Shown: positions 2,007-10,590 of the stretch, piece by piece | How the letters are laid out: every line of letters starts with the position of its first letter | Position numbering within the stretch: position 1 is the first letter of the stretch | NCBI GenBank assembly: GCA_947251855.1 | Contig: CAMXUZ010000012.1 | Span: 1-10,631 of the forward strand | Source: an uncultured Ruaniaceae bacterium | GTDB taxonomy: Bacteria > Actinomycetota > Actinomycetes > Actinomycetales > Beutenbergiaceae | DNA: 10,631 bases | Direction of reading: 5' to 3' | The notes under the pieces: model-generated | Told to the model about the DNA's origin: nothing | Databases searched by the model: none | What the model saw: the letters and a program-made list of their open reading frames with translations, nothing else | Position numbers and translations under genes: made by a program

Positions 2007-2627
2007 CTACAACCAGCCGTTGCGTTCGGCCACCCGAGCGGCCTCCAGCCGGTTCGAGGTGCCGGTTTTCCCGATTGCGGAGGAGAGATAGTTGCGCACC
2101 GTCCCCGCGGAAAGGTGCACCGTCGCCGCGATCACGGCCACCGAGCTGCCGTCGAGGGCGGCACCGAGCACCTCTCGCTCTCGCGCCGTGAGCGGGTTCG
2201 GCCCGCCCGCGAGGGACTCCATCGCGAGAGCGGGATCGACGACCCGTTCGCCCCGCTGCACCGCACGGATCGCGCTGGCCAGTTCCGGGGCGGGGGTGTC
2301 CTTGACGATAAAACCGCGGGCGCCGGCTTCCAACGCCCGGCGCACATACCCGGGCCGGCCGAAGGTTGTGACGATGAGCGACCTGACCTCCGGGGCGAGG
2401 CGGGCGAGCTCCCGCGCTGTTTCAATGCCGTCCAGCCCCGGCATCTCGATATCCAGGAGGCAGACGTCGATCGGGTCGTCTGCGGCGCTCCGTTCCACGA
2501 CCGCTGCCACCGCCTCGGTTCCCGTGCCCACCTCAACGGCGACGTCGATGTCGCCCTCGAGCCGCAGCAGCGCGGCCATCGCCCCGCGTACGAGGGCTTG
2601 GTCGTCGGCAAGGAGGACCTTTATCAC
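2007..2627 (-). CDS. NarL/LuxR-type response regulator (DesR-like)
   Basis: This is a 206-residue two-component response regulator. The receiver domain (about 1-120) has the acidic pair D8-D9 in LLADDQ, phosphoacceptor D59 in LLDIEMPGLDG, the switch threonines in LIVTTFG and the conserved lysine in GFIVKDTP. A LuxR-type helix-turn-helix (about 143-206) follows, with LTAREREVL and a recognition helix around SAGTVRNYLSSAIGKTG. The start chosen is GTG 2627, because family members begin MIRVLLADDQ and AGGAAGGGAG lies just upstream. GTG 2660 is an alternative that would give a 4-base GTGA overlap with the kinase gene. It is the last gene of the ABC-kinase-regulator operon and lies 29 bases after the kinase stop. 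Phosphorylated by that kinase, it most likely controls the operon promoter, though the target is inference. Confidence 0.92.
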   Translation of the reverse strand: MIKVLLADDQALVRGAMAALLRLEGDIDVAVEVGTGTEAVAAVVERSAADDPIDVCLLDIEMPGLDGIETARELARLAPEVRSLIVTTFGRPGYVRRALEAGARGFIVKDTPAPELASAIRAVQRGERVVDPALAMESLAGGPNPLTAREREVLGAALDGSSVAVIAATVHLSAGTVRNYLSSAIGKTGTSNRLEAARVAERNGWL

Positions 2628-2656
2628 GCTCCCTTCCTGCGCAGCATCCTCTCGTG

Positions 2657-3811
2657 TCACCAGCACACCTCCACCTGGGTCCCGCCGCCTGCCCGCGCTC
2701 CGATCTCGAGCACGCCTCCCGACGCTTCGACGCGTTCCCGCGCGCCGCGCAGCGCAGTTCCGGCGACGCCGTCCACTCCGCGCCCGTCATCGGCGACGAC
2801 GAGCCGATCGGCTGTGATTTCGACCCAACACATCTGTGCCCCGGAGTGACGTATGACGTTCGTGATGGCTTCCCGCAGTACCCACGCCGCGACCATCCGG
2901 TAGCGAGGGTCGATGATCGCGGAATCGTCGGGAAGGTCACTTGCGATCCCGGCGCTGGTGAGCGCGGTGCGCGCGTGCTCGAGCTCCTCGGCGAGCCGCA
3001 CGACCCGCAGCCCCGCGACAGTCGCACGGATCTCGCCCAGCGCCTCCCTGGAGAGCGACTCGATCTCGCCGATCTCCGCCGCCGCTTGTGCCGGATCGAC
3101 GTCGATGAGCCGCCGCGCGAGTTCAGATTTCACCGTGATCACGGTCAGCGAATGGCCGAGCACGTCGTGGACGTCGCGGGCCACTCTTTCTCGCTCCGCC
3201 ACGAGCCGATACTGGTTCTCCACCTGGCTGTAGCGGGCCTGGCGGATCTCGATCCACCGCGTCATTCCGGTTGCGACCGCGACGAGGATGACGATCGCGC
3301 AGAGGAACCACAAGTACCGCCACGCCCCGGCTACCGTCAGTGCGATCGCCATGACGACCAGGCACGCGATCGTGATCCCCACCGCCCTTGGAAACGGCTG
3401 GTTGAAGATCGCGAAGGCGACGATGAACGGCACCAGCCCAAGTGCTTCGACCCCGATCGACGTCGCTAGAACACCACCGATCGCCGCGAGCACCACCAAC
3501 GTGAGCGTTCGTACGCGCATCTTGGTCCCCCGGCGCGGAAACTGAACGAACCCGTAGACGTAGATGACGGCGAAAACGAGCGTTGCCGCGAGCCCGACGG
3601 CGCGGGGCACGGGGGGCTCGGCGAGGGCACTGCTGATCGGGAATGCGAGGAAAACGAGCCAGATGACGCTCATCATCCACCCGAACCGCTCCCATGGGTC
3701 GCTGGCAGCACCGGGCGCGGCAGTGTTCTCCCCGCCGGGCGAGCTCGGGCTGTCGGCGCGGGCCTGCTCGGCGAGGGACTGCTGTTCGCTGGCGGTTTCG
3801 TCGTCGATCAT
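2657..3811 (-). CDS. Sensor histidine kinase, HisKA_3 (DesK/NarL-partner) type
   Basis: This is a 384-residue membrane sensor kinase. After a hydrophilic stretch of about 40 residues there are about six predicted membrane helices (around 42-63, 70-90, 100-118, 121-139, 143-162, 166-183) with very short loops, as in intramembrane-sensing kinases. The dimerisation/phosphotransfer helix carries the phosphorylatable H215 in RVARDVHDVLGHSL. The HATPase_c domain shows the N box (REAITNVIRHSG, N318), G1 (VVADDGRGV, about 338-346) and G2-like LRGARERVEASGG. It starts at ATG 3811, 13 bases after the permease stop. I see no good Shine-Dalgarno sequence, so translational coupling is likely. The partner is the NarL-type regulator 29 bases downstream. 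The stimulus is unknown. Lying next to an exporter suggests a membrane-active substrate or lipid perturbation, by analogy with DesK, LiaS and LnrJ systems. Confidence 0.93.
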   Translation of the reverse strand: MIDDETASEQQSLAEQARADSPSSPGGENTAAPGAASDPWERFGWMMSVIWLVFLAFPISSALAEPPVPRAVGLAATLVFAVIYVYGFVQFPRRGTKMRVRTLTLVVLAAIGGVLATSIGVEALGLVPFIVAFAIFNQPFPRAVGITIACLVVMAIALTVAGAWRYLWFLCAIVILVAVATGMTRWIEIRQARYSQVENQYRLVAERERVARDVHDVLGHSLTVITVKSELARRLIDVDPAQAAAEIGEIESLSREALGEIRATVAGLRVVRLAEELEHARTALTSAGIASDLPDDSAIIDPRYRMVAAWVLREAITNVIRHSGAQMCWVEITADRLVVADDGRGVDGVAGTALRGARERVEASGGVLEIGARAGGGTQVEVCW

Positions 3812-3824
3812 TATGCGGATCGTA

Positions 3825-4586
3825 CTATTGCCTGGACCGACCCCGCCGGACCAGCAGCAGCGCCGCGAGTGCGAAGATGACCGCCCAGACCACGAGATTG
3901 AGGATCGGGATCCACAACGGTTCCGGACCGATCGGGGGGCCCTCGGTGGATACGAGGTAGCCGTCGGTTACGGGATAGCGCGCGAGGGCGACGTACCCGT
4001 AGAGCGGGGTGAACTTCGCGAAGGTGAGCATCCCGCCCGACAGCGGGAAGAACACGTTGCCGAGGAACGCGAGGATCACCAGCGCCCCGCTCGCCGCACC
4101 GACGGCTGCTTCGGTGGGGAAGAGTAGCCCGGCCATGAGGCCGTACAGCGAGAACACGACAGCGCCGATAAGCACCACGAGGGCGGAGATGAGCCAGGCT
4201 CTACCGGTCCCTTCCGCGCCGGTGAACGTTCCCAGCAGGTAGATGAGGCTGATCGGGATGATCGAAACGAAGAACGCCACCGCGGCTTTGACCGCGACGT
4301 AGCCCGCGTCGGGCAGCGGCGTGAGCCCGAGTTGGCGCCCCCACCCTTGCATGCGCCCCACGGCGGCGATCCCGCCGACCCCGGTGGTTGCGGTTACGGC
4401 TCCGTAGGCGGCCATCGACGTCATGATGTACATCGTCACGTTCCCGCCGACGATCATCTGCCCACCGAACGCCTGGGAGGCGCCGAAGATGATGTACATG
4501 AACGCGGGCAGGAGCGCCACGAAGAACATCGTCGTGACATCGCGGACCACCCGGCGAAGCTCGATTCCTAGATAGGTGAGATTCAT
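3825..4586 (-). CDS. ABC-2 type transporter permease
   Basis: This is a 253-residue membrane subunit of an ABC exporter (ABC2_membrane, DrrB-like). Seen: a short cytoplasmic N-terminus with the typical ELRRVVRD segment, then six hydrophobic spans (about 19-37, 50-72, 98-122, 131-156, 162-186, 223-247). The fourth to fifth region, GLLFPTEAAVGAASGALVILAFLGNVFFPLSGG, is the characteristic ABC-2 stretch with NVFFPLSG. The ATG at 4586 overlaps the TGA of the ATPase gene (ATGA), and AGGAAGG lies 9 bases upstream, so the two subunits are translationally coupled. It should dimerise and pair with the upstream-encoded ATPase to export a hydrophobic compound, lipid or peptide. The substrate cannot be read from sequence. 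The length is normal for the family, with no damage seen. Confidence 0.92.
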   Translation of the reverse strand: MNLTYLGIELRRVVRDVTTMFFVALLPAFMYIIFGASQAFGGQMIVGGNVTMYIMTSMAAYGAVTATTGVGGIAAVGRMQGWGRQLGLTPLPDAGYVAVKAAVAFFVSIIPISLIYLLGTFTGAEGTGRAWLISALVVLIGAVVFSLYGLMAGLLFPTEAAVGAASGALVILAFLGNVFFPLSGGMLTFAKFTPLYGYVALARYPVTDGYLVSTEGPPIGPEPLWIPILNLVVWAVIFALAALLLVRRGRSRQ

Positions 4587-5587
4587 TTCCTGGCCCCTTC
4601 CTCTCGCGCCGCCACTTCGCTGCCGTGCCGCAATTCCGTGTCGTGCCGAGTGAGTGCGGTGAACGCTTCGTCGAGCGAACCCGACGTGACTTCCAGGTCC
4701 TCACCGCCGTATTGGGTGAGCAACGCGAGCGCGACGGCGTCGGAGTCGCCCGCGTGGACGACGAGCCGGTCGCCTTCGGTATGGACGGTGTGGACGTCGT
4801 TGCGCGCCTCAAGCGCGGCAGCCGCCTGGGCCAGCGGGGGCACCTGGGAGGTGCCGCCGTCCCCAGGAATGCGGGCGGAGACGATTCGGCCAGCGACGTG
4901 GGAGCGGATCTCCCGAGTGGTGCCATCAGCGACGATCTTTCCGCCCGAGATCATGACGATCCGTTCAGCGAAGGAGTCGGCCTCTTCCAGATAGTGCGTG
5001 GCGAAGATGATCGTGCGGCCCCGCCGGGCCTCGGCATGCATCGTGTCCCAAAACTCGTGCCGCGCCGTGACGTCCATCCCCGTCGTGGGTTCGTCCAGGA
5101 TGAGCAGGTCCGGATCCGGTAGGAGCGCGAGGGCGAAACGGAGCCGCTGCTGTTCGCCACCGGAGCATTTCGACACCCGGCGCTTCGCGAGCCCGGATAT
5201 CCCCGCCCGCGTGAGCGCCTCCTCCGTGGAGATGGCGTCATCGAAGGTGGAAGCGATGAGCTCGACGGTTTCCCCCACGGTGAGATCCCGCAGCAGGCCG
5301 CCGCTTTGCAACACCGCCGAGATCTTTCCGCTGCGTACCGCGTCCCGAGCGTTTTGGCCGAGTACTTCGATGCGGCCCTGGGTCGGCGCCGTCAGGCCGA
5401 GGACCATATCGAGTGTCGTCGTTTTTCCCGCCCCATTCGGTCCGAGGAACGCGACGACGGTTCCCCTTGGGATCTCAAGGGATACGTCATCGACCGCTGC
5501 GAGGGGGCGGCCTTGACTTCGGAACACCTTCGTCACGTTCTCGAGGAGAATCGCCGGCGGGGAGGTCGAGTTTTCAACGGGAGTCAT
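4583..5587 (-). CDS. ABC exporter ATP-binding protein (DrrA-like)
   Basis: This is a 334-residue cytoplasmic ATPase subunit. Motifs seen: Walker A GPNGAGKTTT (49-58), Q-loop Q94, signature CSGGEQQR (141-148; Cys and Glu replace the commoner Leu and Gln of LSGGQ), Walker B LLILDEP (161-167) and switch His in FATHYLEEAD (H198). A C-terminal extension (about 230-334) resembles the DrrA/CcmA-type regulatory tail. Start: ATG 5587 is chosen over an in-frame TTG at 5632, since the added residues do not resemble the family. There is no normal Shine-Dalgarno sequence, because the bases just upstream form an imperfect palindrome. It is first in an operon with an ABC-2 permease (4-base overlap), a histidine kinase and a response regulator, and so presumably powers self-regulated export of a toxic or signal molecule. 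Confidence 0.94.
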   Translation of the reverse strand: MTPVENSTSPPAILLENVTKVFRSQGRPLAAVDDVSLEIPRGTVVAFLGPNGAGKTTTLDMVLGLTAPTQGRIEVLGQNARDAVRSGKISAVLQSGGLLRDLTVGETVELIASTFDDAISTEEALTRAGISGLAKRRVSKCSGGEQQRLRFALALLPDPDLLILDEPTTGMDVTARHEFWDTMHAEARRGRTIIFATHYLEEADSFAERIVMISGGKIVADGTTREIRSHVAGRIVSARIPGDGGTSQVPPLAQAAAALEARNDVHTVHTEGDRLVVHAGDSDAVALALLTQYGGEDLEVTSGSLDEAFTALTRHDTELRHGSEVAAREEGARK

Positions 5588-5606
5588 ATTCCAACAATGT
5601 CGGAAT
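5588..5606. promoter_or_regulatory. 19-bp imperfect palindrome next to the ABC ATPase start
   Basis: ATTCCAACA-A-TGTCGGAAT has 9-base arms with a single mismatch around one central base. It lies immediately upstream of ATG 5587, where a ribosome binding site would normally sit. It may be an operator for the operon's response regulator or another dimeric repressor, or a leader hairpin that affects initiation. The role is inference. Confidence 0.4.
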
Positions 5607-5645
5607 GCCGGCCCGCCCGCGAGAGGGATCAATCATGAAAGTGAA

Positions 5646-6155: not shown

Positions 6156-9100
6156 CTAGGGCTGAAACTCCCGGAGGACCTCTTCCGTGATGTGCAGCAT
6201 CTCCTCGCCGTGAATGTCGTGGTCGATCACGTATCTGTTGTGCCGGGTGATGATCTCTTCGGTAAAGGTGCGCGCCCAGCGGCCGTTCGAGCGTTCTTCG
6301 GCCGGGAGAGCGGTGTAGGCGCTCGCGGCGATCTCGGTGAGCAACTCGGCATCGAAACGCCACTGTTTCGCCAAGGCGCGGCTGGCGATCTCGGCTACCT
6401 CTTCCGAGGTGTAATCGGGGAACTCGATTTCGGCGGGAACCCGTGATTTGAGCCCGGGATCGGACCGGAAGAACTCGTGCATCTCGTCGGTGTACCCGGC
6501 GAAGATGGCAACGAACTTGTCGCGGTCGTCCTCGAGCCGGGTGATCATCGCATCAACGATCTCCTGCTTGAACGACGAGTTCTTTCCGCCTTGCGTGCGC
6601 AGCTGGTGCGCCTCGTCGATGAACAGCACTCCACCCATTGCAGCGTCGAATGCCTGATGCGTGTTCGCAGCCGAATGACCGAGGTACCTGCCCTGCAACT
6701 GGCTCGCGGGGACGGATTCCACTGTCGGAGTCGAGAGGATGCCCAGAAGGTGGAATACCTCCGCCACGGTGCGCGCCACCGTCGTCTTCCCGGTGCCGGG
6801 ATTTCCGGTGAAGGCGACGTGATAGTTCGGGCGTTCCATTGCGCCGTCCAGTTCGAGCATCCGTTGGTTCACGGTGGCTTGCGCGACCAACGAATGGACC
6901 CATTCCTTCACCGGTCCCAGGCCGATCATGGAATCCAGTTCGGCGAGCTTGTGTGCCAGCTGGGCCTCTCGATCCTCGGGTCTGCCACCGGCGAGGGCGT
7001 GCAGGTCCTCCGCTTCGATGGTTATGAGATCTTCCCTGGTGGGATTGTCTATGAGGATCACCCGGTCCTCCTGACGAGAACGGAGATCCTGGTTGAAATT
7101 GCGCACCCAGCGCGCATTACTGCGATCAGCGCTCTGGGCGTAGGCAGCGCCGACGATGCGTCGGTAGAGTTCCTCGTCCACCGTGTAGTGGCCGCGGGCG
7201 AGTTCGGCGAGACCGATCTGAGCGATCTCAGCGGGGGAATAATCCTCGAAATCGAGGCGGTGCTTGATCCGAGACTTGAAACCCTCATTCATCGCGAGCA
7301 GTTCGTGCATCTTTTCGTTATAGCCCGCGAGGATGACCATGGTGTCGGAACGGTTGTTCTCCAGGAAAGTGAGGATTTCGGTGATCGCCTCCTGCGCGAA
7401 GCCGCTGGAATCCTCGGTCGCCAAGGAATAGGCCTCGTCAATGAAGATCACACCGCCGCGGCCGCTCTCCAACACCTCCCGGGTCTGTTTCGCGGTACCG
7501 CCGATGACATCACTGACGAGTTGGGCACGCCCCACCTCGACGAAACTCTCGCTGATCACCGCGCCGACCTCGTGCATCGCCTTGCCGAGCAACCGCGCCA
7601 CCGTCGTCTTTCCTGTCCCGGGGTTACCGAGGAACATGCTGTGGAGGGTGAAATCGGAATCGGCCGGCAGCCCGAGTTCGAGGCGTTTCTGCCGTAGCTT
7701 CACGGCGTTCGCGATGCTCTGTACCTGCTTCTTCACCTTCGCCAGACCGACGAGGTCGTAGAGTCTGGTGAGCGGGTCGCCGTCATCCTTCACGCGCTCG
7801 TCGGTAGCGCTCGACGCGACGTCGTCCCAGTCGGGGTGGTCTTCTACGCCCATCGGTGCGCGCGAGTCCAGGCCACGGTCGTGAGCCTGGGCAGGAGCCC
7901 CTCGGGTGGCGAAGTGCACGGCTTGCGCCTCATCGCCCTCAGTCACCTCGAAGAGGTCATAGGCGCCGGGGTCGATTCCGGTGATCTCACCACCGTTGCG
8001 AACCACTTTGAAAGTTTCATCGTCAGTGGATCCGAAGGTGGTCAGATCAACGGTTCCGCCTTCAAGTGAGATGCACAGATCGTCCGTGGAAGCGGTGAGG
8101 GAGGGGATGTGGATCGTGCCGCCGTCAGCGGCTCGGATCTCGCAGTAGCCGCCGTTATCGTGACTATGGTGCTCGTCGGTGACCGTGATCGTGCCATCCG
8201 CCTCCGCGGTCAGAGCGTAGGAGAAAGAACCAGAGAGCGAGGCACTCGCCCCGTGCACCACGTGGAGCGAGTCGAAGCCGCAGTCCACCGCCTCGAGCCG
8301 ACCGGTGGCCGAGACGAGGACGGTTGCCCACGTGTTCTCCGGGACCGTAGAAATATCGACGCTGCATGCTCTCAAGGTGAGGGCTCCTTGGGACTCGACG
8401 ATGTTGCTTCCATCCGGGCCTGCGGCCGGTTCCAAGGTCACCTGCTCCAGGGTGAGGTGGGCATCTGATTCACCGACGAGGACGGCGGGTACATCCGGAG
8501 AGGGGGTTGCGACGGTGAGATCGGTGATTTCGGAGTCTCCAGCCGACGCCGCCCGCAGGCAACCGATGAGCCGGGTGCGTTCCTTGCCCTTCCCCTGCAG
8601 TCGTACCCCGGGCAGGAGGAGCAGTTCGCCCTCGATGACGTAGTCTCCCTGCTCGAGCAACACCGTATCACCAGGACTCAGTTGTGGCGCGATCGTGGAG
8701 TCGAATGCGCCAGCATGCTCCAGCGGCCAGGTTATGGTTTTCGGACGGGATGGAGGCGGTTCGGGAGCGGCGTCCTGATCGATGACCCTCACCCGAGAGC
8801 TCGCGCTATTGACCCGGGCCTCGTTCTTGGTGATCACTGAGACTGAATGCTCGTTGCTCTGAACGACTTCCCCGATCTGCACCAAGCTGTTGTCCGCGAA
8901 CCCCTCATCGTCCTTCTCCGTGAGTTCCAGGTGTGGAAACTCGCAGACTGATTGCCCGGAGAGGACGAACATGCGCTTCTTGGGCTCCGAACTGATCCGA
9001 TGGCTCCCGTAGGTGCGGACCCGGGAACCGTCCGCGGCGAGAATAATGGTCGATCCTGAGTCGATCAGATCCGCTTTCGAGTTCGTGAAATACATACGTC

Positions 9101-9557
9101 CGAGTTCGCAAGTCGTTGCGTGTAGCGTGCCCGCTTCCACCTGCACCGAGATCGCATCTGCGGCACTCGTATCGGCCTGCACGGCCGTATTCTTCAACAC
9201 GAGGCTGTTGCCCTCCCCGGCCCAGATGGCCGGGTATTTGCCACTTGGATCGGGTAGAACGGCGCAGTTCGTGATTGTTGCCATGTTACGGGGCGTGTTC
9301 AGGTAGATCCCGTTCTTATACGGCAAAGGATTGAGCGTCAGATTGCGGAAGGTGCAATGGCCTTTGATGATGAAGGAACCATGGATGAATACGTCGTTTC
9401 GATCTGTGGCGCCTTCCAGTTGCACCCCGTTGAGGATCAGCTGTTCCGTTTCGTACGTACCGGGATCAAGGACGATCCTGTCGCCCGACGCGACCTTCTG
9501 AAGAGCCGCTGTGAGGGAGACCTTTCCGAAACCCGAACCGACTCTGATCCTGGCCAT
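6156..9557 (-). CDS. Right-handed beta-helix protein fused to tandem CbxX/CfqX-type AAA+ ATPases
   Basis: This is a 1133-residue, apparently cytoplasmic protein (no signal peptide or membrane span). Residues 1 to about 540 form two right-handed parallel beta-helix modules, each opening with a matching pectate-lyase-like cap (about 6-77 and 277-352; compare GDRIVLDPGTY with GDTVLLEQGDY). An acidic linker (about 545-593) follows. AAA+ domain 1 (about 594-840) has Walker A GNPGTGKTT (644-652), Walker B FIDEAY (705-710), Arg finger R763 and NARWVRNF. AAA+ domain 2 (about 867-1133) has Walker A GNPGTGKTT (918-926), Walker B FIDEAH (979-984), R1039 and NGRWARTF. Both sites look active. The family (CbbX, SpoVK, EccA ATPase domain) forms hexamers that remodel partner proteins. 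Start: ATG 9557 with GAAGGGAG 10 bases upstream. An in-frame extension to 9785 is unlikely because it runs into the upstream gene. The target is unknown. Confidence 0.88.
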   Translation of the reverse strand: MARIRVGSGFGKVSLTAALQKVASGDRIVLDPGTYETEQLILNGVQLEGATDRNDVFIHGSFIIKGHCTFRNLTLNPLPYKNGIYLNTPRNMATITNCAVLPDPSGKYPAIWAGEGNSLVLKNTAVQADTSAADAISVQVEAGTLHATTCELGRMYFTNSKADLIDSGSTIILAADGSRVRTYGSHRISSEPKKRMFVLSGQSVCEFPHLELTEKDDEGFADNSLVQIGEVVQSNEHSVSVITKNEARVNSASSRVRVIDQDAAPEPPPSRPKTITWPLEHAGAFDSTIAPQLSPGDTVLLEQGDYVIEGELLLLPGVRLQGKGKERTRLIGCLRAASAGDSEITDLTVATPSPDVPAVLVGESDAHLTLEQVTLEPAAGPDGSNIVESQGALTLRACSVDISTVPENTWATVLVSATGRLEAVDCGFDSLHVVHGASASLSGSFSYALTAEADGTITVTDEHHSHDNGGYCEIRAADGGTIHIPSLTASTDDLCISLEGGTVDLTTFGSTDDETFKVVRNGGEITGIDPGAYDLFEVTEGDEAQAVHFATRGAPAQAHDRGLDSRAPMGVEDHPDWDDVASSATDERVKDDGDPLTRLYDLVGLAKVKKQVQSIANAVKLRQKRLELGLPADSDFTLHSMFLGNPGTGKTTVARLLGKAMHEVGAVISESFVEVGRAQLVSDVIGGTAKQTREVLESGRGGVIFIDEAYSLATEDSSGFAQEAITEILTFLENNRSDTMVILAGYNEKMHELLAMNEGFKSRIKHRLDFEDYSPAEIAQIGLAELARGHYTVDEELYRRIVGAAYAQSADRSNARWVRNFNQDLRSRQEDRVILIDNPTREDLITIEAEDLHALAGGRPEDREAQLAHKLAELDSMIGLGPVKEWVHSLVAQATVNQRMLELDGAMERPNYHVAFTGNPGTGKTTVARTVAEVFHLLGILSTPTVESVPASQLQGRYLGHSAANTHQAFDAAMGGVLFIDEAHQLRTQGGKNSSFKQEIVDAMITRLEDDRDKFVAIFAGYTDEMHEFFRSDPGLKSRVPAEIEFPDYTSEEVAEIASRALAKQWRFDAELLTEIAASAYTALPAEERSNGRWARTFTEEIITRHNRYVIDHDIHGEEMLHITEEVLREFQP

Positions 9558-9747: not shown

Positions 9748-10590
9748 TTACGCCGTCGAAGAGCGTTGAGCGGCCGCGGGGTCACCCGCAGAGCGCGGCG
9801 GGTCCACGAACACCGCCCGCTTCGCGGCTCGCCGTAACGTCACCAGCACGGGGTGGCCGAGCACGAGCACCCCCGCCGCGGTCGTGAGCGCCCGGGTGAG
9901 ATCCCACGGCAGGGAGGTGACGATCGAATAGGAGGCGAACCTCGCCAGATTGGAGCCGAGCGGATCGCCGGGCACGAACGAGATGTCGGTGCCCATCCCC
10001 GCCACGAACGGCCAGAACGACAGGTTGAGCAGCACCCCGAACGCTACCGAGCTCACGGCTCCGTACCCCGCGAGCAACGAAAGCTCCCCCACCCGGGATC
10101 CGCGCGTCCCGCGTGTGCCCACTCGGCGCGGCAGGAGTCCCGCCCCGAGGCCCACCCAGCCCGCGGCGAGCATCTGGAACGGCAGCCACGGGCCCACCCC
10201 GCCGGTGAGCAGCGCGGAGGAGAACAGCGTGCTCACCCCGAGCAGGAACCCGAACCCGGGCCCGAACACTCGCCCGCCGAGCACGAGGAGGATGAACACC
10301 GTCTCCACCCCGCCGGTGCCCGCCGCGATCGGGCGGATGAGTGCCCCCACGGCGGAGAGGAGACCAAGGAGGGCGACGGCCCGAACGTCCATACCGCCGT
10401 CCGAAATCGCCATGAGCGTGACGACGAGCGACAGGGCGAGCACGACGCCGAGAATGAGTGGGGCGGTTGCCGAATGGCCGGTCGGGGAGGCGAGCACGGC
10501 GGCGCCGGAGTCGACGAACAGCGGCCAGGTGAAGGTGAGCAGTCCGATGACAGTGACGGCGAGGAGCGTGGGCGCGAGCCGAGGCCCCAC
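9748..10590 (-). CDS. ECF transporter S component (vitamin-type substrate-binding membrane protein)
   Basis: This is an integral membrane protein of about 280 residues resembling the substrate-specific S subunit of energy-coupling-factor transporters. Seen: about six or seven hydrophobic spans (around 8-27, 43-63, 68-88, 95-128, 135-155, 171-196, 217-248), the GRVFGPGFGFLLGVSTLFSS and GPWLPFQMLAAGWVGLGAG segments, and a late LPWDLTRALTTAAGV helix like the D..RA segment of S components. The C-terminal tail is basic then polar. The start is uncertain: GTG 10590 lacks a ribosome binding site, and the frame stays open to the right edge (10631) without another usual start, so the real N-terminus may be outside. 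The T subunit and ATPases are presumably encoded upstream, off the window. The substrate is undetermined; a cobalamin (CbrT-like) or other vitamin ligand is possible but not shown. Confidence 0.75.
   Translation of the reverse strand: MGPRLAPTLLAVTVIGLLTFTWPLFVDSGAAVLASPTGHSATAPLILGVVLALSLVVTLMAISDGGMDVRAVALLGLLSAVGALIRPIAAGTGGVETVFILLVLGGRVFGPGFGFLLGVSTLFSSALLTGGVGPWLPFQMLAAGWVGLGAGLLPRRVGTRGTRGSRVGELSLLAGYGAVSSVAFGVLLNLSFWPFVAGMGTDISFVPGDPLGSNLARFASYSIVTSLPWDLTRALTTAAGVLVLGHPVLVTLRRAAKRAVFVDPPRSAGDPAAAQRSSTA

Follow-up and report, generated by a model that had tools for sequence, protein, structure and literature searches.

A double beta-helix head on a tandem AAA+ motor: a probable dedicated remodelling chaperone of Micrococcales with kin in Lactobacillaceae

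The window examined here is a whole stretch of 10,631 nucleotides from an uncultured Ruaniaceae bacterium (contig CAMXUZ010000012.1 of assembly GCA_947251855.1). On its minus strand, at 6156..9557, it carries a gene for a protein of 1133 amino acids composed of two beta-helix modules, a linker and two AAA+ domains. This protein is probably a remodelling chaperone dedicated to a particular client, with the beta-helix head serving for recognition. The favoured reading, given a probability of about 0.6, is that it works in the cytosol as an ATP-driven machine for protein remodelling and belongs to the SpoVK/CbbX/EccA clade of AAA+ proteins, in a branch common to Micrococcales and Lactobacillaceae. 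By sequence or in the predicted model, it has two beta-helix modules, two intact ATPase sites, pore loops that differ between the two motor domains, a disordered linker, a fusion conserved among relatives and no transmembrane-like stretch.

The central idea of a beta-helix head on a motor of this clade is already in print in outline. In the accessible portion of a survey, clade members are chaperones with narrow targets, and their varied N-terminal domains, the EccA beta-helix included, are interpreted as probably recruiting substrates (PMC10659427, Delerue et al. 2023, bioRxiv). This was the only source tying a beta-helix to the clade in the literature searched, which lacks most subscription journals; nothing closer turned up there, and the window branch, the twin modules, the Lactobacillaceae kin and the difference between pore loops were not found in the accessible portion of the survey. 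Few clients of the clade are known, and those named in the same portion are Rubisco, MurG and type VII secretion substrates (PMC10659427). A head missed by Pfam and rings differing in their pore loops offer a route to a new client by way of an AAA2 trap. The analysis also connects lactobacillar genes that are poorly named as 'CbbX' with genes of soil actinobacteria, and sets the branch apart from the type VII-associated Streptomyces proteins, with which it would be lumped by a search for 'beta-helix plus AAA'.

The polypeptide and its beta-helix head

An uninterrupted minus-strand frame from 9557 to 6156 codes for all 1133 residues. The start at 9557 is preferred over a longer frame from 9785 because relatives of 1132-1133 amino acids begin with the same residues. 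All parts of the gene lie on the minus strand: beta-helix module 1 comprises residues 1-265 (8763..9557) and module 2 residues 270-550 (7908..8750), followed by the linker (residues 551-594; 7776..7907), AAA1 with its lid (residues 595-860; 6978..7775) and AAA2 with its lid (residues 861-1133; 6159..6977), the last containing a Pfam AAA match at 915-1047. The linker is disordered over residues 554-591, where the predicted local distance difference test value (pLDDT) falls below 50, and none of its 44 columns is conserved at 90% in a 45-row alignment of relatives described below. The maximum 19-residue hydropathy of the full protein is 1.16.

The predicted model and a fold search identify the head as a right-handed parallel beta-helix, with coils of short strands stacked into parallel sheets that match solved beta-helices. 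A head-only model was built for this search because searches with the full model were filled by AAA+ chains. The original prediction, made from the letters alone, had placed two beta-helix modules and two CbxX/CfqX AAA+ domains in one polypeptide; the frame, the motifs and the model bear this out, and the beta-helix stands at the N-terminus of the model as anticipated. Precomputed Pfam lists assign PF22842 to P0003 and some other relatives. At odds with them, direct Pfam scans of seven heads (the window, P0003, P0004, P0005, L001, L034 and L020) gave no PF22842 match at E values up to 1.

Polysaccharide lyases, epimerases and phage tailspikes account for many of the head's top fold matches. 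These matches favour a reading in which the head is a lyase-like or lectin-like sugar-handling module and the protein works at, or close to, a cytosolic glycan or an enzyme making one, the least likely of the readings weighed here. None of the charged head residues is invariant in all 45 aligned members; D26, D297, R195, K107 and E218 come near, in a comparison with the catalytic Lys/Arg and metal-binding acids of polysaccharide lyase families PL6 and PL9 that used conservation alone. A search of a viral structure library with the head returned broad beta-helix matches only. A phage or viral origin of the head was considered and rejected: tblastn in phages found no match, and two head scans of viral contigs yielded none that was confirmed. 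The PHROGs matches of the protein are of AAA type. An AAA-based scan of viral contigs gave 67 loci, of which three were opened, and one of these (L046) holds a Streptomyces-type beta-helix protein beside a mycosin match.

A conserved motor with unequal pore loops

Relatives were sought among 5.8 billion proteins, with 7,996 and 7,991 candidates scored for the head and a widened head, and with 120 of 7,996 listed for the motor. Among the matches listed, the head search found two relatives (45% and 41% identity) besides the window protein itself, the widened head at least six relatives, and the motor many more, 1,056-1,182 amino acids long. The 45-row alignment contains the window protein and 44 relatives, 41 of them hand-picked on length and motor identity from the motor search listing. 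At least 200 residues are covered in 43 of the 44 for module 1 and in all 44 for module 2. The named members are presumably Micrococcales, save P0003, whose record reads Sporosarcina. A related locus (L001, NZ_JADHDY010000003.1) is likewise titled Sporosarcina beigongshangi, but its gene order is common with Specibacter and its genome falls in the same family, so that the title looks wrong.

The fusion of head and motor recurs in full-length relatives on contigs of up to 377 kb and 3.17 Mb, which rules out an assembly or fusion artefact, one of the outcomes that had been named as fatal to the original prediction. The Specibacter gene is split, but across two contig ends. One actinobacterial metagenome protein (P0019) has three AAA+ domains, the second and third almost identical (branch lengths 0.02 and 0.01), reflecting either a recent duplication or an assembly artefact.

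The two halves of the protein evolve at different rates. Median identity of the 44 relatives to the window protein is 31% and 26% in the modules and 53% and 52% in AAA1 and AAA2, respectively. Columns kept in at least 90% of members number 14 of 265 and 22 of 281 in modules 1 and 2, compared with 86 of 266 and 85 of 273 in AAA1 and AAA2. Faster divergence of the head is as expected if a part for recognition is mounted on an unchanging engine.

The ATPase motifs of both AAA+ domains are kept in all 45 members, and the earlier observation of both Walker A/B pairs and both Arg-finger candidates holds throughout the alignment. In AAA1, Walker A occupies residues 644-651 (7605..7628), Walker B residues 703-708 (7434..7451) and the Arg finger R763 (7269..7271). 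The corresponding elements of AAA2 are residues 918-925 (6783..6806), residues 977-982 (6612..6629) and R1039 (6441..6443). Each Arg finger is present in 45/45 members, and E708 and E982 had been correctly named as the Walker B glutamates. The survey gives a GY signature with Tyr in the sensor-1 region, an upstream Asn and a second Arg as the marks of the SpoVK/CbbX/EccA clade, in its accessible portion (PMC10659427, Delerue et al. 2023). GY is found at G745 Y746 and G1021 Y1022 in 45/45. The second Arg (sensor-2) is present as R816 and R819 in 45/45, R1093 in 43/45 and R1096 in 45/45. For the Asn expected four residues before the first Arg finger, the picture is mixed. AAA1 has N757 in 44/45, but K, Q or R predominates at position 761, and the invariant Arg, R763, comes six residues after the Asn; the corresponding place in AAA2 is N in 28/45 and D in 17/45, and is D1033 in the window protein.

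The window protein reaches the cut-off of none of the three clade families in NCBIfam. Its best score is for SpoVK (TIGR02881, 398.3 bits vs 422.95), followed by CbbX (TIGR02880, 365.3 vs 459.25) and EccA (TIGR03922, 340.6 vs 466.65). The best PDB sequence matches are CbbX and EccA1, both to AAA2. SpoVK, a member of the same clade, activates one client enzyme, MurG, and differs in its short N-terminal domain and its restriction to sporulating Firmicutes, as given in excerpts of the survey (PMC10659427). CbbX, the activase of red-type Rubisco, differs in having one AAA+ domain and a short helical N-extension and in being encoded with Rubisco, according to the accessible part of a CbbX study (PMC5385338). 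No Rubisco family was found among the eight proteins of the 10.6 kb window that were scanned.

The two motor domains differ in their pore loops. That of AAA2 (residues 958-960, YLG; 6678..6686) is aromatic at position 958 in 45/45 members (Y 22, W 18, F 5). That of AAA1 (residues 684-686, VIG; 7500..7508) has Y, W or F at position 684 in 0/45 (N 16, R 10, T 6, H 5, A 3, V 2, S 1, K 1, G 1). In the accessible part of the same study, CbbX requires canonical Tyr/Ile/Gly pore loops for pulling the RbcL tail and remodelling Rubisco (PMC5385338). The window's AAA2 loop reads YLG, and that of AAA1, VIG, is not aromatic. Because CbbX remodelling depends on the Tyr/Ile/Gly loop, and only AAA2 has an aromatic residue there, AAA2 is the domain expected to pull, and AAA1 would lack a grip.

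These features suggest how the machine may work. Six subunits would assemble into two stacked rings, with the double beta-helix heads on flexible linkers binding one particular client rather than serving clients in general. AAA2 would grip an exposed segment of the client and pull, much as CbbX tugs the Rubisco tail, and the client would thereby be activated or rearranged. AAA1, with its ATPase motifs kept, more likely holds the ring, times ATP use or provides docking. A fuller version is more tentative and is put at somewhat worse than even odds. It would make the proteins a dedicated activase family outside type VII secretion, spread over Micrococcales and Lactobacillaceae, whose tandem beta-helices recruit a cytosolic client (perhaps one within the two-component/ABC-exporter module that recurs near the gene) while AAA2 pulls and AAA1 anchors.

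Several points weigh against the remodelling-machine reading. No client of the window protein is known. The whole-protein model has a predicted template modelling score (pTM) of 0.47, and its head-to-motor geometry is undefined. Fast divergence of the head could alternatively reflect weak constraint. The gene is also rare. It was found in 6 of 295 genomes of one family, in 4 of 396 genomes from the order (the first count had included two of these four), and in 1 of 24 and 2 of 186 genomes of the families of two found carriers. A class-wide draw gave matches in 2 of 394 genomes, G002 and one weak partial match, and no further full-length carrier. This low occurrence implies that the gene is dispensable for most species. 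Finally, the AAA1 pore loop carries Tyr in two of four Lactobacillaceae species (L. salivarius and L. porcinae) and Asn in the other two, and the split of ring roles is thus not universal across the wider family.

Lactobacillaceae kin and the type VII secretion cousins

Proteins of Lactobacillaceae annotated as 'AAA family ATPase' or 'probable RuBisCo-expression protein CbbX' share the head as well as the motor. Four of their heads are homologous to that of the window (hhalign probability 99.3, E 9e-21, 243 columns). The number of head modules in these proteins is one or two and that of AAA+ domains two to four, and no function for them was found in the searches made. In the tree, AAA1 and AAA2 of the window fall into two clades (support 100/98 and 100/99), each also containing domains from Lactobacillaceae, and both clades lie in a single branch (97/82). 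In L. salivarius, both domains cluster with AAA1; in the other three of the four Lactobacillaceae species treed, AAA1 and AAA2 group with their window counterparts. One EccA sequence (EccA_L037), which is without a standard Walker A, was excluded from the trees, and the second tree omits Pontibacillus. The beta-helix stands where other members of the clade carry tetratricopeptide repeat (TPR) or other domains, and such heads are read as likely recruiters in the accessible portion of the survey (PMC10659427), in keeping with the earlier proposal that it replaces a target-recognition head. The further description as an uncharacterised actinobacterial chaperone or activase fits less well: the class had already been reported, and the Lactobacillaceae heads and related motors show that it is not only actinobacterial.

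On two L. salivarius plasmids (L010 and L042), the beta-helix-like/AAA+ genes are 98% identical and stand beside a DUF3268 zinc-finger gene (96%) and a gene for a 186-residue protein (96%). Both plasmids also carry large, mutually similar proteins by the gene, and the neighbourhood is unlike the Micrococcales loci. The DUF3268 gene and its neighbours form a possible client set on these plasmids.

A second group of beta-helix motors belongs to Streptomyces, Nonomuraea and Planotetraspora (99/96), weakly joined to EccA (88/50). Its Streptomyces members, annotated as 'right-handed parallel beta-helix repeat-containing protein', resemble the window protein in a long beta-helix head that precedes a motor of one or two same-clade AAA+ domains. 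The four with both domains also have the same pore-loop split, with I, V, V and I in AAA1 and Y in 4/4 in AAA2, as does Nonomuraea P0006 (H and Y). Unlike the window gene, they form a separate group and are sited in a secretion cluster. Matches occurred in 38 Streptomyces plasmid records, nine of which were opened; two of the nine (L029 and L030) are near-copies. Six are annotated, and in these the gene belongs to a cluster that includes eccC and further type VII genes; three are without annotation there. With ecc queries from L029, tblastn matched eccC in 8/9, the miss being S. clavuligerus pSCL4; of those eight loci, eccD was matched in eight and eccB in seven. In Streptomyces NBC_00055, the beta-helix protein (L008:9476-12655) has one standard Walker A only, and its second ATPase site may be degenerate.

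This company raises the alternative that the window protein is an EccA-type chaperone of a type VII system encoded elsewhere, in which the beta-helix takes the place of the TPR head and EccC receives substrates from the motor. EccA, whose function is described as unknown in the excerpt available of one source (PMC11217815), shares the clade and an N-terminal recognition head. It differs in its TPR head, as given in the accessible part of the survey (PMC10659427), in the one standard Walker A of the EccA examined and in being encoded with ESX genes. No TPR was found in the window head, where a beta-helix is modelled, a head type also listed for EccA in that part of the survey (PMC10659427). The alternative draws on the Streptomyces loci and their pore-loop split, on EccA1 among the top PDB matches and on the published phrase, in the same excerpts, that ties a beta-helix to EccA (PMC10659427). 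It draws also on the trees: a single clade of all beta-helix motors is compatible with the data (approximately unbiased test, p-AU 0.33), and union of the window branch with EccA is not rejected (p-AU 0.073). Two independent beta-helix fusions, which the trees suggest, are not claimed since one origin has a p-AU of 0.33. A WXG100 gene occurs in 6/6 carrier genomes tested; this is uninformative because 272 of 290 family genomes have WXG100, against 6 of 295 with the head.

The alternative is judged unlikely. At E 1e-10, one Streptomyces query set gave no eccB, eccC, eccD or mycosin match by tblastn in the window and eight related loci of 7-22 kb. EccB was unmatched in 6/6 carriers, in a search without a working positive control that is hence no evidence of absence. 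The window motors group with Lactobacillaceae, and uniting the Micrococcales and Streptomyces-type actinobacterial motors without Lactobacillaceae is rejected (p-AU 7e-50). The heads of the two lineages match over an N-terminal stretch only (hhalign probability 27, 112 columns); the Streptomyces head is a Pfam Beta_helix match (E 5e-42 and 3e-55 in two tested), whereas that of the window is only weakly like it. The EccA score below its NCBIfam cut-off points the same way. At the loci examined, the window branch shows no sign of a type VII secretion role, and the ESX/WXG100 link suggested in the original prediction is not seen.

Neighbouring genes and mobility

At 2007..5632 on the minus strand lie genes for an ATP-binding cassette (ABC) ATPase (DrrA-like), a presumed permease of 253 amino acids with no Pfam match, a HisKA_3 kinase and a LuxR-type regulator, a possible functional neighbour. 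A search for a conserved partner among gene neighbours, as had been advised, found a kinase and LuxR-type regulator near the gene in 6/10 loci (the window, G002, G082, G458, G461 and G707, that of G458 being a PspC-type kinase), a pattern recognized post hoc. An ABC ATPase is also near in four of these (the window, G002, G461 and G707). The window and G002 share the order of ABC ATPase, presumed permease, kinase and regulator, which in G002 lies outside the stretch first compared. In the related loci G461 and G707, genes of these kinds are directly beside the AAA+ gene on the opposite strand. The kinase/regulator pair is absent at G001, G023, G127 and the short G075 contig. An all-against-all comparison of neighbouring open reading frames in the window and eight loci, with the kin pairs L001/L002 and L018/L020 set aside, found as shared families ABC ATPases, kinases, regulators and one unidentified 32% match between L017 and L034.

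These neighbours suggest that the client could be part of an envelope-response module formed by the two-component pair and the DrrA-like ABC exporter. This idea, which would fill in rather than replace the remodelling-machine reading, has a rather small chance of being right. HisKA_3 lies within 10 kb in three of the first eight genomes vs 0.49 expected (P 0.0096), but this P value is too small because the hypothesis was drawn from the same loci that were counted. A later find, G707, agrees with the idea, but its locus is not independent, being syntenic with that of G461 (regulator and ATPase each 78% identical). Identities to the window genes across lineages are just 27-41%, and such pairs are common, with 6 to 17 HisKA_3 per genome. 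The two-component/ABC neighbourhood is a lead at this stage.

Other neighbours are ordinary, among them an energy-coupling factor (ECF) transporter part, a UvrD helicase, a ubiE methyltransferase and a VanZ-like gene. The gene with the ECF transporter substrate-binding domain (PF12822, E 4e-9; 9748-10590) is the upstream neighbour, also on the minus strand and separated by 190 bases from the start of the beta-helix/AAA+ gene; it had no match in seven other loci searched. At 2-1990, an MMPL transporter gene cut by the window edge is divergent from a MarR-type regulator gene. An Rfam scan of the window gave no match, and a promoter scan gave a single site near chance level.

The patchy occurrence of the gene is also what would be seen if it were mobile or of defence type, encoding an accessory motor of foreign origin that acts on phage or plasmid components. 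Its guanine-plus-cytosine (GC) content is below that of its flanks at 8/8 loci measured (the window, L001, L002, L017, L019, L020, L033 and L034), by 0.02 to 0.13, which may indicate foreign origin or merely protein composition. Lactobacillaceae relatives occur on plasmids and, by eye, beside an integrase-like gene on a low-GC contig. This reading is nonetheless very unlikely, since PADLOC matches on the protein are confined to the AAA+ part and look generic, PADLOC on the L. salivarius neighbours gave no match of weight, the Micrococcales neighbours scanned are ordinary genes and the lower GC may mirror the protein's own composition. On a low-GC IMG/VR contig (L044:1-4109), a double AAA+ protein of 934 amino acids, its head beta-helical by eye, is encoded beside an integrase-like protein of 400 amino acids.

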